Below are positions 34,514 to 44,601 of a stretch of DNA of 64,000 nucleotides, in pieces. Source of the stretch: Alphaproteobacteria bacterium (GTDB lineage: Bacteria > Pseudomonadota > Alphaproteobacteria > Sphingomonadales > Sphingomonadaceae); contig QBLU01000002.1 in the NCBI GenBank assembly GCA_003241875.1, positions 62,001 through 126,000 of the forward strand. The letters run 5' to 3'. The first letter of the stretch is position 1. The number at the start of each line of letters is the position of its first letter. The notes under the pieces are model-generated. The model did no database searches. It had not been told where the DNA came from and saw nothing but the letters and a program-made list of their open reading frames with translations. Made by a program: the position numbers and the translations under genes.

Positions 34514-37186
34514 TCAGTTGAACTTCACCAGGATCGTGCGTTGGTCGGCGCCGACCCGGAGCGTGCGGATCGCGCCGGGAATCCCAGACGGCACCAGCAG
34601 CACCGCCGGCAGGTCGCCGAATTCCAGCCAGCTCGCATCAGGCGACAGCAGCACAGCCCCGGCGCCGAGCGCCGGCCCCGTCCCGCCGAATGTCGATCGT
34701 GCGTCGGCGGCCTGGAGCGTCGCCGACCACAGCAGCCCGGGGCTGCCGGTCGCGATCGCATGCCGCCCCGGGACGGGGCCAAGCGCGCCGGTCCAGCCGA
34801 CCAGCGACGCCGCCGCCCGTTGCCCGTGCAGGTTGGCCGCAGGGACGAGCGCGATCGCAACACCGCCGGCAGCTTCCAGCGCGCCGGAGGCGCCATCGGC
34901 GACCCGCGGCTGGTCGGCGAAATCGCGATCGCTGTTGGCGCGCACCACCCGGCCCAGAAGCGGGCTCGCTGCCGGCGGCTGGTAGTCGCCGCCGCCGCTG
35001 CCGCCGGTGTTGGCCGACCGGTCGAGCGTGAACCAAACGGCCGGGACGATCGCGTCCTTCAGGGCGCGCGGGCCATAGAATTCCAGGCCGAACGCCGATC
35101 CCGGCGCGCTGCCCTCGACCGTCGCCTCGTGGTTGACGGCATAGAGATAGGACCAGGCCTCGACCATCTGCGGACGATAGCCATTGGCATTGCCGCGCAG
35201 ACCCGCCGTGGTGCCATCGTAGAAACTGTCGTGCTTCGACGGCTGCCAGTTGAGGTAATTGTTGGCGAAACGATTGACATAGGCCTGGTTGCGCTGGCTG
35301 TTCGTCTCGGCCACCGTCGCCGGCAGCGGATCGGAATAGAAACTGTTGCAGCGGTCGCCGACGAAGGTGTTTCCCTCGACGATGTTATAGCTCATCGTCA
35401 GGCTTTCATCCTCGCCAAGGGCGTAAAAGGGCGCATCGGCGGTCGGCCCGATCTTTTCGAAGACATTGTTCAGCCACAGCATCCGGCGCAGCGACGGGTT
35501 CGGCGTGCCGGCCGCTGCCGCGCTGGCGGTCGGATTGCCCTGCCGGCCGCGGCCACGCAGCGCGCGAAAATCGCTGAACGCCACGACCGTGTCTTCCGAC
35601 AGCCCGGCCGGGCTCGTGCTGGTGGCGTGCGGCACCATCGCCGCCTCGGTCCGGGAGGTGCTGATATGGCCGTCTTCCTCGGCACTGATGTAGCGCTGGC
35701 GGATGATCGCCGGGCAGGCGATCTGGCTCGAAAAGGCGCAATTGCGCATCAGCATCGTGACAAAGGGGCGCCAGCTGTTCTGGCTGGATTTCACCCGCGT
35801 CATGGCGACATGGGTGACAGCCGTGGTCGGCGATGCGGTCGCCCCCTCATAGCCCGGCGCCGCCTTGAAGGTCACATTGTCGTACCAGAAACTGCTGGCG
35901 GTGCCGCCGCTGACCACGCCGAGGCTGGTGCCCTGGACGGTGAGATTGGCGAGGCGGACCTTCAGGTTGTTGCCGATCCGGCCACCGTTGGACGCGCCGG
36001 GACCACGCAGGATGCAATTGTCGCGCGGATTGGCATTGTCGGGGTCGCCGATGACGCGGATCGGCACATCGGCGGTGGTCACGCCCAGCACCGCATTCGA
36101 TGTTGACGACACGTTGACCCCCGCGGCCAGCACGATGGTGATGCCATCCCCGGCGCGGGTCGACGCGGCCTGGCCATTGGCCGCCACCTGGCTGCGATTG
36201 AGGTTGTAGATGGCGTTGAACGCGGTCTGCAGGGTAGCCGGCTGGTTCGACAGCGGCTCCGCCTTTGCCGCCGCCAGCGACGACTTGATCATCGTCGCGT
36301 TGCTGGTCGTCTGCGTCGACGCCGGGTTCACATAGATGAAGCGGCCGCCATAGCGCGCGCCGGCCGGATCATAGCCGACGACAAAGGGGATCGCCGCCGC
36401 CGCCCCGATGCCCGCCGTGCCCAGCGCCGCCATTGACCGGGTGCCCGCCGGATCGGTCGAGCGCATCGCGCCGAGATGGGGATAGACCTCGGCATCGCAG
36501 CGCAGCAGCCCGGCGGTCAGCGCCGTCGCCGTCGCCGGGTCGATCATCACCGTATAGCAGCGCAAATTGTCGCCATGGTCGTTGTCGGTATCGAGCGCCG
36601 TCGTCCACACTGTCTTCGTCGTGGTCCCGTCGGTCGCGGTGAACTTCACCGCCGCCACCGGCGCGAAACCCACCGGATGATGGGAGGCGACCAGCAGCGA
36701 CAGCCGGAAGCTGCCGGTGACGATGTCGTAGGCCGGGCGCACCCAGCGCATGATCGGCAGCGGCGCCGCGATGCTGCTGTTGTTGACGACCGCGATCCCG
36801 CTCGCCGCCGCCTCGCCGCTGCGCCACCCGGCAAGCACCGCCAGCGGGCCGAGCGTGTCGGTGGCATAGACATATTCCGACAGCGCGATCCGCACCGCGA
36901 TGCTGCCGCCGCCCAGATCGACCTCGTCGATGACCGCGGGATCGAGCCCGGTGCCGTTGAAATTCGCCGGCTTGCGCAGCGGCTTGGTGCCGATCAGCGG
37001 GCGGTTGTGGACATTCGGGACGGCAGCGCCGCCAGAGGCCGTGAAGCCCGCATGGCTCGCCGACAGGCCGACCCGCGGCGCGCCGTCGGGGTCGAGCGCA
37101 TAACCGGCAAAGCTGCCGAGGCCACCGGTCACGACCAGCCGCAGCACCCAGCCGTTGGTATCCACCGAAGCGGCAGTTATCGCCAT
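34514..37186 (-). CDS. Large (890 aa) hypothetical protein, predicted right-handed beta-helix-like, inserted between capsid and connector
   Basis: Intact ORF; central repeats of short beta/Asn-rich turns (DVPIRVIGDPDNANPRDNCILRGPG...RIGNNLKVRLANLTVQGTSLGVVSGG...SFWYDNVTFKAAPG...MLWLNNVFEKIG...LTMSYNIVEGNTFVGD). Confidence 0.75.
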   Translation of the reverse strand: MAITAASVDTNGWVLRLVVTGGLGSFAGYALDPDGAPRVGLSASHAGFTASGGAAVPNVHNRPLIGTKPLRKPANFNGTGLDPAVIDEVDLGGGSIAVRIALSEYVYATDTLGPLAVLAGWRSGEAAASGIAVVNNSSIAAPLPIMRWVRPAYDIVTGSFRLSLLVASHHPVGFAPVAAVKFTATDGTTTKTVWTTALDTDNDHGDNLRCYTVMIDPATATALTAGLLRCDAEVYPHLGAMRSTDPAGTRSMAALGTAGIGAAAAIPFVVGYDPAGARYGGRFIYVNPASTQTTSNATMIKSSLAAAKAEPLSNQPATLQTAFNAIYNLNRSQVAANGQAASTRAGDGITIVLAAGVNVSSTSNAVLGVTTADVPIRVIGDPDNANPRDNCILRGPGASNGGRIGNNLKVRLANLTVQGTSLGVVSGGTASSFWYDNVTFKAAPGYEGATASPTTAVTHVAMTRVKSSQNSWRPFVTMLMRNCAFSSQIACPAIIRQRYISAEEDGHISTSRTEAAMVPHATSTSPAGLSEDTVVAFSDFRALRGRGRQGNPTASAAAAGTPNPSLRRMLWLNNVFEKIGPTADAPFYALGEDESLTMSYNIVEGNTFVGDRCNSFYSDPLPATVAETNSQRNQAYVNRFANNYLNWQPSKHDSFYDGTTAGLRGNANGYRPQMVEAWSYLYAVNHEATVEGSAPGSAFGLEFYGPRALKDAIVPAVWFTLDRSANTGGSGGGDYQPPAASPLLGRVVRANSDRDFADQPRVADGASGALEAAGGVAIALVPAANLHGQRAAASLVGWTGALGPVPGRHAIATGSPGLLWSATLQAADARSTFGGTGPALGAGAVLLSPDASWLEFGDLPAVLLVPSGIPGAIRTLRVGADQRTILVKFN

Positions 37187-37266
37187 GGGGTGACCTCATC
37201 GATATCGGGAAAAAAGCGGCGGCGCCGGGGGTGCCGGCGCCGCCGAGGTGCGTCACGCGGCGCGCA

Positions 37267-40461: not shown

Positions 40462-41787
40462 CTACAGCCCCCGCACCTTCGGCTTGCCGCGCTTCACCCC
40501 GAGCATCAGCGCCGTCAGCGCCCAGACCAGGGCATCCGCCCGGTCGGGCGACGCCCCAGGCCCCGCATAGATGCCGCTGCGCAACAGCCCGCAAAGCTGG
40601 TCCTCCAGCGCCGGAAACGCGCCGGCGTGCAGCACCCGCCGGTTACCATATAGGCTCGCAACAGGTTCAGCCCGGGCGACCTTGCCGCGCGATGCCCGCA
40701 CCGTGTCGACCGCCAGGGCGGAATCCGCGGCGCGCAGCAGCGATGGCACCATGTCGCCGCCGTTGTTGATCTCGGCGATCACCTTGTCGGCCCTCCACTT
40801 GTCGACCGCGGCGACCACGGCGCGGGCCCAGCCCTCCGGCGGCCCGCCCTCGACGCTTTCGTCGCCGAGCACATAGCCGATGCCGTCGGTGCCCAGCCCG
40901 ACCGCGACGATGCCGCAGACGCCCTGCGCCCCGCCGGCCGGCGGATCGACACCGATCACCACCCGCATCATCGCCGGCGTCTCGGTCGCCCGCTGCCGCT
41001 CGATCAGCGCGCGGGTCCACAATGCCCCCTCCAGGTCATCGACGATCTCGCCGTCGAGCTCCTGCCGGCCGATCGCCGAGCCGCCATAGCGCCGCTCCAG
41101 CCCGGCGATCAGCGATGCCGGCAGATTGGCACGATTGTCGTCCATCCGCCCGCGCGTCACCACCACGCCGGGTTCGGCAAGCATCGCCTTCAGCCAGGCA
41201 TAGGGCAGCGGTGTCGTCGTCAGCAGCAGCTGGGGATGCAGCCCCAGCCGGGTCGCCAGCCGCAAATTGGTCAGCGTCGCCTCGGCCCGCGGCCAGTGCG
41301 CGAATTCATCGCCCCAGGCAAAATCGAACTGGCCGCCGCGCAGGGCATCGGGCTCGCCGCCCGAAAACAGCCGCGCCTGCGATCCATTCGGCCAGGTCAG
41401 TTGCCGCAGGCTGGGCACATAACTCACGTCGCCGCCGGGTGGCACCCGCGCCAGCAGGCCGGATTCACCCTCCACCATCACCGCCCGCGTAGTATCCAGC
41501 GTCGGGCCGACAAGGGCAAAACGCCGCCCCGGCGCCGCCGCCAGCGCATGGATCCATTCGGCGCCGGCCCGCGTCTTGCCGAAACCCCGGCCGGCGAGAA
41601 TCGCCCAGATCGCCCAGTCCCCCGGCGGCGGCAACTGCGCCGGGCGCAGCGTACCCTGGCCGGCAAGCGCCCCCTGCACCGCGTCGTCGCCGTTGTCGGC
41701 AACCACCGCACGCTGCCGGGCGGGGCCAACATCGTCCCAGATTTCCGCGACCGATCGCGGATCGTCAGCCGCCGGGCGGTCTGCCAT
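40462..41787 (-). CDS. Large terminase subunit (DNA packaging ATPase/nuclease) (g2)
   Basis: Walker A ILAGRGFGKTRAGAEW; FDFAWGDEFAHW; VIGVDPPAGG; ALVWALTALMLG. Confidence 0.95.
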   Translation of the reverse strand: MADRPAADDPRSVAEIWDDVGPARQRAVVADNGDDAVQGALAGQGTLRPAQLPPPGDWAIWAILAGRGFGKTRAGAEWIHALAAAPGRRFALVGPTLDTTRAVMVEGESGLLARVPPGGDVSYVPSLRQLTWPNGSQARLFSGGEPDALRGGQFDFAWGDEFAHWPRAEATLTNLRLATRLGLHPQLLLTTTPLPYAWLKAMLAEPGVVVTRGRMDDNRANLPASLIAGLERRYGGSAIGRQELDGEIVDDLEGALWTRALIERQRATETPAMMRVVIGVDPPAGGAQGVCGIVAVGLGTDGIGYVLGDESVEGGPPEGWARAVVAAVDKWRADKVIAEINNGGDMVPSLLRAADSALAVDTVRASRGKVARAEPVASLYGNRRVLHAGAFPALEDQLCGLLRSGIYAGPGASPDRADALVWALTALMLGVKRGKPKVRGL

Positions 41788-41986: not shown

Positions 41987-42355
41987 CTATTCCCCCGCCA
42001 GCGCCCGGATCTGCTCGCGCACCCGGGCGATCCTGGCCGCGTCGACCGTCACGATCGGCCGCGCCATCGCCATCGGCCGCCGCTTCAGCATCTCCAGCGC
42101 CACCTTGGGGTCGATGTCCTCGGCCTCGCCTTCGAGCAAGGTCGCCAGCAACCGCATCTCCACCTGTTCCCAGGCGACACCCAGCGCGCGCCGCCATTCG
42201 TCGGCCAACAGCGGCCAGCGCTCGCGCATGTCATAGGCCGCCGCCAGCGTCTGCCCGATCGCCCGCGCCGCCGTCGCCGGATTGCCGGTTTCAGCGAGGG
42301 TGGCGATGAAGCGCTTGCGATCCTTGACCAGCCAATGGCGAATGCTGTGTTCCAT
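41987..42355 (-). CDS. Putative small terminase subunit (g1)
   Basis: RKRFIATLAETGNPATAARAIGQTLAAAYDMRERWPLLADEWRRAL, HTH-like, directly upstream of TerL; RBS GGGAG. Confidence 0.7.
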   Translation of the reverse strand: MEHSIRHWLVKDRKRFIATLAETGNPATAARAIGQTLAAAYDMRERWPLLADEWRRALGVAWEQVEMRLLATLLEGEAEDIDPKVALEMLKRRPMAMARPIVTVDAARIARVREQIRALAGE

Positions 42356-42382
42356 GCGCGGCGTCTCCCACAGGGCCGACGA

Positions 42383-42415
42383 AAAAGGCGCCCCGCGGTT
42401 GCGGAGCGCCTTTCT
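42383..42415 (-). terminator. Intrinsic terminator immediately upstream of first GTA gene
   Basis: Minus strand AGGCGCTCCGC-AACC-GCGGGGCGCCTTTTTC: 11-bp stem, 4-nt loop, T5. Confidence 0.82.
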
Positions 42416-42442
42416 GTCGGCGGATTTCTGAAGCGTGCCGAA

Positions 42443-42472
42443 TCTCTAACCAAAAGCGTCGCGCTTGTCAAC
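42443..42472 (-). promoter_or_regulatory. Candidate sigma70-type promoter upstream of GTA cluster
   Basis: Minus strand TTGACA-(18 nt aagcgcgacgcttttggt)-TAGAGA (or N17-TTAGAG). Confidence 0.5.
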
Positions 42473-42529
42473 AGAAAAGTGCCAGATGGGTTTTTGGTTC
42501 CCCTTCGCTGCAAGAGAGGGGGAGCAGGG

Positions 42530-43426
42530 CTACCGATACACTTCCTCATCCCACCACGGATAGAAATCCGGCATGTCGGTGCTGACCTTGTCGGGATAGA
42601 CCGGCGGGCGCTTCTCCAAAAACGACACTACGCCCTCCCTGGCGTCACCCGCCCGACCGCGGGCATAAATCGCCCTGGAATCAAGGCGATGCGCGTCCCA
42701 CGGGCTTTCTGCTCCGGCCATCCGCCACAGCATCTGCCGGGTCAGCGCGACGGACACCGGCGCCGTGTTCTCGGCGATTTCCAGCGCCAGCGCCCGCGCT
42801 GCCGGCAGCAGGTCATCGGCAGCATGGACCGACCGCACCAGCCCGCCCTTCAGCGCCTCGTCCGCCCCGAACACCCGCCCGGTCATGCACCATTCCAGCG
42901 CCTGGGGCAGGCCGACCAGCTTCGACAGGAACCAGCTCGATCCCGCCTCGGGAACGATGCCGCGCCGCGCGAAAACAAAGCCGAATCGCGCCGTCTCCGA
43001 CGCCATGCGCACGTCCATCGCCAGCTGCATGGTCACGCCGATGCCCACCGCCGGGCCGTTGACGGCGGCTATCACCGGCTTCAACGACTTGAAAATGCGC
43101 AAGGTTACCCGGCCACCACCATCGCGCACGGCGTCATGGCTGTAATCGATGCTGCCATCCTCGCGCACCGGGCCACCGCGTTTGCCGCCCAATTTCTCAT
43201 AATCGAACGTCGCCGCCCCGGCGCTCAGATCCGCCCCGGCGCAGAATGCCCGACCGCGCCCCGTCACGATGACGGCGCGCACCGAATCATCGGCGTCGGT
43301 CACGTCGAACGCCGCGATCAGCTCGTCCATCATCGTGCCGGTAAAGGCGTTGAGCTTCGCCTCGCGATCGAGGGTGATGGTGGCAACAGGCCCGTCGATA
43401 TCGAGGGCAATCTGGGTAAAGGTCAT
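42530..43426 (-). CDS. Enoyl-CoA hydratase/isomerase family protein
   Basis: VATITLDREAKLNAFTGTMMDEL; AVIVTGRGRAFCAGADL; KPVIAAVNGPAVGIGVTMQLAMDVRMASETARFGFVFARRGIVPEAGSSWFL. Confidence 0.93.
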   Translation of the reverse strand: MTFTQIALDIDGPVATITLDREAKLNAFTGTMMDELIAAFDVTDADDSVRAVIVTGRGRAFCAGADLSAGAATFDYEKLGGKRGGPVREDGSIDYSHDAVRDGGGRVTLRIFKSLKPVIAAVNGPAVGIGVTMQLAMDVRMASETARFGFVFARRGIVPEAGSSWFLSKLVGLPQALEWCMTGRVFGADEALKGGLVRSVHAADDLLPAARALALEIAENTAPVSVALTRQMLWRMAGAESPWDAHRLDSRAIYARGRAGDAREGVVSFLEKRPPVYPDKVSTDMPDFYPWWDEEVYR

Positions 43427-44601
43427 CACAGCGCCTCGATGATCGTCACATTGGCAAGGCCGCCGCCCTCGCACATGGTCTGCAGCCCCCAGCGCTTGCC
43501 GCGCGCATGGAGCGCATGGACCAACGTCGTCATCAGCTTGGTTCCCGACGCCCCCAGCGGATGGCCGAGCGCGATCGCCCCGCCGTTGACGTTGAGCCGG
43601 GCCGGGTCCGCCCCCAGGACCTGCAGCCAGGCCGCCGGCACCGAGGCAAAGGCCTCGTTGACCTCGTACAGGTCGATGTCCTCCAGCTTCATCCCCGACC
43701 GCGCCAGCGCCCGCTGGGTCGCCCCGATCGGCGCCTCGAGCATGATCACCGGATCCTCGCCGACGACCGTCATGTGATGGATTCGCGCCATCGGCTTGAC
43801 GCCCAGCGCCTTCAGCCCGCGTTCGTTGACGATCAGCATCCCCGACGCGCCATCGCAGATCTGCGACGACGTGGCAGCGGTCAGCCGGCCGCCCTCCATG
43901 ATCAGCTTGACGCCGCGAATGGCCTCCAGGCTGGCATCGAAGCGAATGCCTTCGTCGACGGTGTGGGTGTGCGCGGCGCCCTCGTGCGTCGTCACCTCAA
44001 TGGGCACGATTTCCTTGTCGAAGGCGCCACTGTTGGCCGCCGCCGCGCCACGCCGCTGGCTTTCATAGCCGAAGGCGTCGAGCTCATCCTTGGAAAGATT
44101 GTACTTCTTGGCGATCATCTCGGCGCCGGCGAACTGGCTGAACTGGATGCCCGGATAACGGTCCTTGATGCCGGCGCTGCCGAACGGCGAACCGAGGCCA
44201 TTTTCGTGCGCCAGCTTGGCTGGCGTCGCCATCGGGATGCGGGTCATCGATTCGACCCCGGCGGCGATGACGATGTCCATCTGGCCGCTCATCACCGTCG
44301 CGGCGGCGAAATGCACCGCCTGCTGCGACGATCCGCACTGGCGATCGACGCTGGTGCCCGGCACCGATTCGGGCAGTTTCGACGACAGCACGGCATTGCG
44401 CGCGACATTTGCCGATTGCTGGGCGAATTGCCCGACACAGCCCATGATGACGTCCTCGACGAGCGCCGGGTCGGCGCCGGAGCGGTCGATCAGCGCATTC
44501 AGCACCTGGCCGGCGAGGTCGGCGGGGTGCCAGTCCCGCAACATGCCGCCGCGCCGGCCGCCGGCGGTCCGCGCCGCGGCAACGATATAGGCTTCGCTCA
44601 T
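43426..44601 (-). CDS. Acetyl-CoA C-acyltransferase (thiolase)
   Basis: SVDRQCGSSQQAVHFAAATVMSGQMDIVIAAGVESMTRIPM; VNEAFASVPAAWL; LNVNGGAIALGHPLGASG. Confidence 0.94.
   Translation of the reverse strand: MSEAYIVAAARTAGGRRGGMLRDWHPADLAGQVLNALIDRSGADPALVEDVIMGCVGQFAQQSANVARNAVLSSKLPESVPGTSVDRQCGSSQQAVHFAAATVMSGQMDIVIAAGVESMTRIPMATPAKLAHENGLGSPFGSAGIKDRYPGIQFSQFAGAEMIAKKYNLSKDELDAFGYESQRRGAAAANSGAFDKEIVPIEVTTHEGAAHTHTVDEGIRFDASLEAIRGVKLIMEGGRLTAATSSQICDGASGMLIVNERGLKALGVKPMARIHHMTVVGEDPVIMLEAPIGATQRALARSGMKLEDIDLYEVNEAFASVPAAWLQVLGADPARLNVNGGAIALGHPLGASGTKLMTTLVHALHARGKRWGLQTMCEGGGLANVTIIEAL

Follow-up and report, generated by a model that had tools for sequence, protein, structure and literature searches.

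A conserved promoter and a leader terminator before the first gene of a Sphingomonadales GTA cluster: a candidate anti-termination switch

Introduction

Gene transfer agents (GTAs) are domesticated-phage particles that transfer DNA, and the mechanism of their control is known in very few species. In Caulobacter crescentus, the GTA promoter PgtaT is controlled by GafY, GafZ and IHF. Binding of GafZ to a palindrome in the promoter spacer and read-through have been demonstrated there; GafZ requires this palindrome (GCGCCCG-CTGGCGC), its GTA promoter has the -35 AATCAT and depends on GafY, and a near-consensus -35 makes the promoter independent of GafYZ (PMC11150451). In Rhodobacter capsulatus, GafA is one fused protein contacting the omega subunit of RNAP; its DUF6456-type C-terminal part binds an RcGTA promoter fragment with -10/-35, and GafA is not known to act by anti-termination (PMC9638019). 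Homologues of gafA/gafZ carry the annotation DUF6456 (PMC9765227, PMC9638019). A comparable arrangement has been described for Pseudomonas aeruginosa AlpA at PalpB-tB, with the binding element located in the promoter spacer and an intrinsic terminator within the 5' UTR, ahead of the first gene of a lysis-linked phage-like programme (PMC7969949, PMC9371919), and for lambda Q at pR'/tR', which combines a late-gene promoter, a loading site in the spacer and a promoter-proximal terminator (PMC11150451, PMC7969949).

We have analysed the region before the first GTA gene in a window of 64,000 nucleotides, by which we mean the whole stretch of DNA studied. On the basis of its nearest named terminase matches, the genome groups with Polymorphobacter/Sandarakinorhabdus in Sphingomonadales. 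As in Caulobacter, a GTA cluster, a GafZ homologue, a palindrome between -35 and -10 and a terminator to be read through are found together. The differences are a consensus -35, no detectable GafY, a different dyad sequence, and a terminator placed in the leader before g1, whereas the known Caulobacter terminator, made up of 150-bp repeats, follows the first gene (PMC11150451). The proposed leader switch at g1 appears to be a variant differing from Caulobacter GafYZ control. The layout is shared with lambda Q and AlpA, and the phage-like programme of AlpA can be counted as a further likeness to a GTA; the AlpA paper places an event 54 nt from the start (PMC7969949), and the U tract ends near +54 in the present leader.

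The promoter and its conservation

The following features of the promoter region have been assigned.

42530..43474, minus strand: upstream gene, enoyl-CoA hydratase/isomerase (Pfam PF00378, E 2e-49), on the same strand as the GTA genes and ending 58 nt before the -35
42466..42471, minus strand: -35 hexamer TTGACA, conserved across the promoter alignment
42443..42448, minus strand: -10 hexamer TAGAGA, with TA at positions 1-2 conserved
42419..42436, minus strand: conserved initial transcribed region ACGCTTCAGAAATCCGCC from the alignment, with the TSS predicted near 42436 from the -10 spacing

A sequence-only reading of this DNA had described the motif as TTGACA-N18-TAGAGA at 42472-42443. The motif is confirmed, and its spacer and start are revised: read on the minus strand, the two hexamers at 42471-42443 are 17 nt apart.

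In most of the Sphingomonadales loci compared, a promoter profile built from 24 leaders marks one site, just 5' of where the GTA genes begin. A calibrated sequence profile matched 45 of 61 whole relative genomes, exactly once in 43 of them, and all matches examined were at GTA loci or remnants thereof. The 3.8-Mb genome of the window has a single match, whose E-value of 4.6e-21 comes from a profile partly built from this very site. The near-invariant blocks of the promoter alignment are, in order, AACC-n5-GG, TTGAC, the dyad AxCGTnACGxT and the TA of the -10. TTGACA is nearly invariant across the aligned promoters, and it is not the degenerate -35, needing activation, of a Caulobacter-type promoter. 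As judged from this alignment, GTA clusters throughout Sphingomonadales have this promoter in conserved form. Weak profile matches were also obtained in Rhizobiaceae loci (E 0.02-0.4), for which we do not claim a shared architecture. A consensus promoter and terminator scan called neither this promoter nor the leader terminator. This is because TAGAGA breaks the scan's rule of T at position 6, and because the A tract is base-paired with some of the T run.

Of 52 leaders, 27 have GANTC, the CcrM methylation motif, 3' of the -10. This may be chance, or the motif may be part of a conserved GAGTCGSC-like block.

Spacer dyad, GafY and the upstream operator

42454..42466, minus strand: spacer dyad AAGCG-CGA-CGCTT, a putative site of GafZ binding (from the information content per position, the dyad counts and a placement analogous to that of the Caulobacter ZBE)
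42482..42492, minus strand: half-dyad AACC-N5-GG resembling an operator, 5' of the -35 (alignments and exact-pattern search)

In the alignment of Sphingomonadales GTA promoters, a dyad with the consensus AGCGTnACGCT lies between -35 and -10. Its core positions mostly carry 1.5-2.0 bits, close to the -35, and the remaining spacer is mostly uninformative. The conserved spacer dyad is confined to the GTA promoter. Like the element of a Caulobacter-type promoter, it is a palindrome between -35 and -10, with a sequence unlike that of Caulobacter. Since Caulobacter GafZ requires its palindrome at this same promoter position (PMC11150451), the dyad is a putative GafZ docking site by analogy.

Control by GafYZ, which the sequence-only reading had carried over from Caulobacter, does not fit this genome as it stands. 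The search for both homologues that it had proposed yielded a GafZ homologue, which is frameshifted, and no GafY: with PF08299 and a GafY profile, DnaA was the sole match in the own genome, and likewise in nearly all of the 61 relatives. PF08299 does pick up gafZ-adjacent GafY-like proteins in other alphaproteobacteria. Given a consensus -35 and no detectable GafY, the simplest interpretation is that GafY would not be needed for initiation and that anti-termination by GafZ remains.

The consensus TAACC-N5-GGTTA is common to the GTA promoter and the XRE-gafZ intergenic region. An XRE gene divergent to gafZ was found in 27 loci (21 genomes), where the intergenic region has this pattern or a variant of it; the own variant, GAACC-N5-GGTTC, has both arms changed together. 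The exact pattern is not enriched genome-wide over a reversed control, and thus only its position is informative. A second control layer via the XRE protein at the shared operator is likely from these positions, and the protein is similar to RogA in position and, like it, has an HTH. The shared operator would also be expected if control were exerted at initiation only, by the XRE protein or another factor at AACC-N5-GG, with a leaky and irrelevant terminator. This explanation accounts neither for a conserved dyad peculiar to the GTA promoter nor for the enrichment of leader terminators given below, and layers of initiation and anti-termination can coexist; we regard it as very unlikely.

The leader terminator

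42382..42412, minus strand: leader intrinsic terminator, 12-pair hairpin and U tract, about +24 to +54 (sequence, folding and leader comparison)
42365..42369, minus strand: putative ribosome-binding site GGGAG (sequence)
41987..42355, minus strand: g1, first GTA gene, 122 aa (tblastn relatives placed as g1 in other GTA clusters)

The order of terminator, GGGAG (42369-42365) and g1 ATG (42355) is the one originally read from the sequence. The strong terminator reported at 42415-42383 with an 11-bp stem and T5 is also found, with its exact limits now at 42412-42382 and 12 pairs. The hairpin, AAGGCGCTCCGC-AACC-GCGGGGCGCCTT at 42412-42385, includes one G.T among its pairs and is followed by TTT, the T run being at 42386-42382. 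The 59-nt leader, which runs up to and includes the U tract, has a folding energy of -30.1 kcal/mol, compared with -17.1 +/- 2.7 for shuffles (z = -4.8). Since an Rfam search of the leader gave only sub-threshold chance matches, it belongs to no known riboswitch or leader family.

Within the first 95 nt, 21 of 63 non-redundant leaders contain a strict intrinsic terminator, while 1.8 are expected from the downstream same-strand rate. This corresponds to 3.5 per kb in leaders and 0.31 per kb in downstream same-strand GTA DNA (about 11 times). With a looser test, terminators were obtained for 22 of 63 leaders and for 120 of 2091 random windows (5.7%; p 1e-11).

The hairpin starts 117 nt past the stop of the enoyl-CoA hydratase gene on the same strand, and terminators are frequent in intergenic regions, so that it might be only the terminator of that gene (and of its equivalents elsewhere), lying by chance 3' of the GTA promoter. 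However, transcripts of this conserved promoter must pass the hairpin anyway. The strict leader hairpins keep to a fixed range, ending +41 to +86 from the predicted TSS behind varied upstream genes, and none of 62 stretches at -200 to -70, just upstream of the promoters, held a terminator by the looser test. Hence we consider termination of the upstream gene alone an unlikely role.

The stem sequences are very different among the 21 terminator leaders, which belong to several families, and the pairing is kept. The hairpin is retained in several relatives despite sequence change; the G012 leader, for example, has a different loop and one pair exchanged between C-G and G-C relative to the window. 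In the own subclade of nine leaders, a U-tract terminator is present in four (own, G012, G017 and G021) and a hairpin without a U tract in three (G007, G013 and G023). G004 has a different structure without a U tract, and G019 has none. The strong hairpins of G023, G007 and G013 (folds of -28 to -41 kcal/mol), which occupy the same place, are what would be expected of a 5'-UTR element for stability or pausing whose U tract is incidental. Against such a role, which seems improbable to us, the combination of hairpin and U tract recurs in those 21 leaders with very different stems.

Sandarakinorhabdus-like leaders mostly have no terminator, and most own-genus leaders have no U-tract terminator. 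The alignment of related leaders that had been proposed as a check therefore bears out conservation for the upstream motif, and for the hairpin it gives recurrence without universality. As far as these leaders indicate, the terminator is recurrent and not obligatory, and it is not essential to GTA control in near relatives without one. Since near relatives have a hairpin without U's, and one has neither, it appears dispensable for GTA control in the own genus.

GTA genes downstream

40462..41787, minus strand: GTA large terminase, g2 (Pfam PF03237/PF17289, PHROG terminase)
37217..37245, minus strand: second strong intrinsic terminator, just past the capsid gene and inside the cluster (-28 kcal/mol, CTTTTTTC tail)

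The genes downstream form an RcGTA-like head-tail cluster (terminase, portal, protease, capsid, adaptor, tail tube and baseplate hub). In downstream GTA DNA, 76 strict terminators are on the sense strand and 35 on the antisense strand (p 1e-4), an excess that is expected if read-through is needed. An 890-aa open frame on the minus strand (34514-37186 of the window), between the capsid and head-tail adaptor genes, has no match in Pfam, PHROG or NCBIfam.

The gafZ homologue

G000:C100:94637-95139 (L003 1400-1902), minus strand: own gafZ homologue (DUF6456), frameshifted (perfect 16-bp tandem duplication)

The own genome has a DUF6456 gene, though a frameshifted one. A perfect 16-bp tandem repeat of 2.3 copies, at L003 1605-1641 (G000:C100:94850-94886), shifts the frame after about residue 94 in the assembled sequence, and the C-terminal HTH half is lost. 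In other genomes of the same genus, the DUF6456 match is uninterrupted in 21 of 23 and absent in two. Because of this duplication, the switch is probably stuck off in this strain, or reversion would be needed.

Promoter and DUF6456 are both present in 44 and both absent in 14 of the 61 relatives, with three mixed cases (concordance 58/61; Fisher p 8e-11, without kinship correction). For terminase-bearing genomes only, the corresponding counts are 37/1/1/6 (p 6e-6, likewise without kinship correction). The co-occurrence is phylogenetically confounded, since the terminase genomes that have neither gafZ nor promoter stem from two families (f5 and f8); G003 is an exception to the rule. The DUF6456 gene lies immediately 5' of the promoter in about 15 sister genomes.

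For the modelled DUF6456 protein of a relative (pLDDT 74), sigma region-4 domains rank first in the PDB fold search, though no match has an E below 0.1; this agrees with the published description of GafZ. Neither Q nor AlpA is among the 50 matches listed. Thus no structural match to AlpA and no fold match to lambda Q was detected, and AlpA differs also in protein family and DNA motif.

Proposed control

We think it reasonably probable, judging from the comparison of loci, that an RcGTA-like GTA has its main promoter here and that transcription from this promoter is gated at the leader terminator through processive anti-termination. The promoter has a consensus -35, and transcription would begin at about 42436. 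Unaided RNA polymerase would halt at the hairpin near +51 to +54, leaving a short RNA. GafZ (DUF6456) is predicted to be loaded at the spacer dyad and to let polymerase through the leader terminator and then through later ones, such as that past the capsid gene. The cis-acting read-through checkpoint suggested by the sequence-only reading gains support from comparison, in that the terminator separates g1 from a conserved promoter and in that the spacer holds a dyad, absent from that reading, at the position of the Caulobacter GafZ-binding element.

The spacer element, known from its sequence, and the leader intrinsic terminator of a Q/AlpA-type system are both present, and the fold search detected no relation of the DUF6456 protein to Q or AlpA among the matches listed. 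The best reading of the arrangement appears to be a GafZ-only switch that has the lambda-Q/AlpA layout and a leader terminator, and that would work like Q/AlpA without being a member by homology. A wider proposal, offered tentatively as a possibility that we would not yet favour, is that the Sphingomonadales GTA lost GafY. Its promoter would be a lambda pR'-like consensus promoter without an activator, gated only by GafZ at the leader terminator and by an XRE factor with an operator common to the gafZ and GTA promoters, and a reversible 16-bp duplication in gafZ could then toggle the GTA.

The cis code (operator, consensus -35, spacer dyad and leader terminator) is conserved across an order mostly without GafY, which would make the anti-termination step separable from the activation step. 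We suggest that a plasmid reporter with GafZ alone may be sufficient to probe GafZ anti-termination. At the DNA level, the promoter could also serve to mark GTA clusters that GafZ controls.

Terminases without the promoter and fragmentary clusters

In six genomes from two families of the same order (G040, G046, G049, G052, G057 and G059), GTA-like terminases were found with neither promoter nor DUF6456. Control must therefore differ in these genomes, or the terminase must belong to another element.

In five other genomes (G010, G024, G001, G025 and G018; L161, L164 and L205-L207), gafZ and the GTA promoter are kept and the GTA genes are only fragments. As read in these assemblies, this pattern shows repeated decay of the GTA, apparently by internal deletion behind a retained promoter. 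The fragmentary clusters mostly retain the terminal DUF2793 gene.
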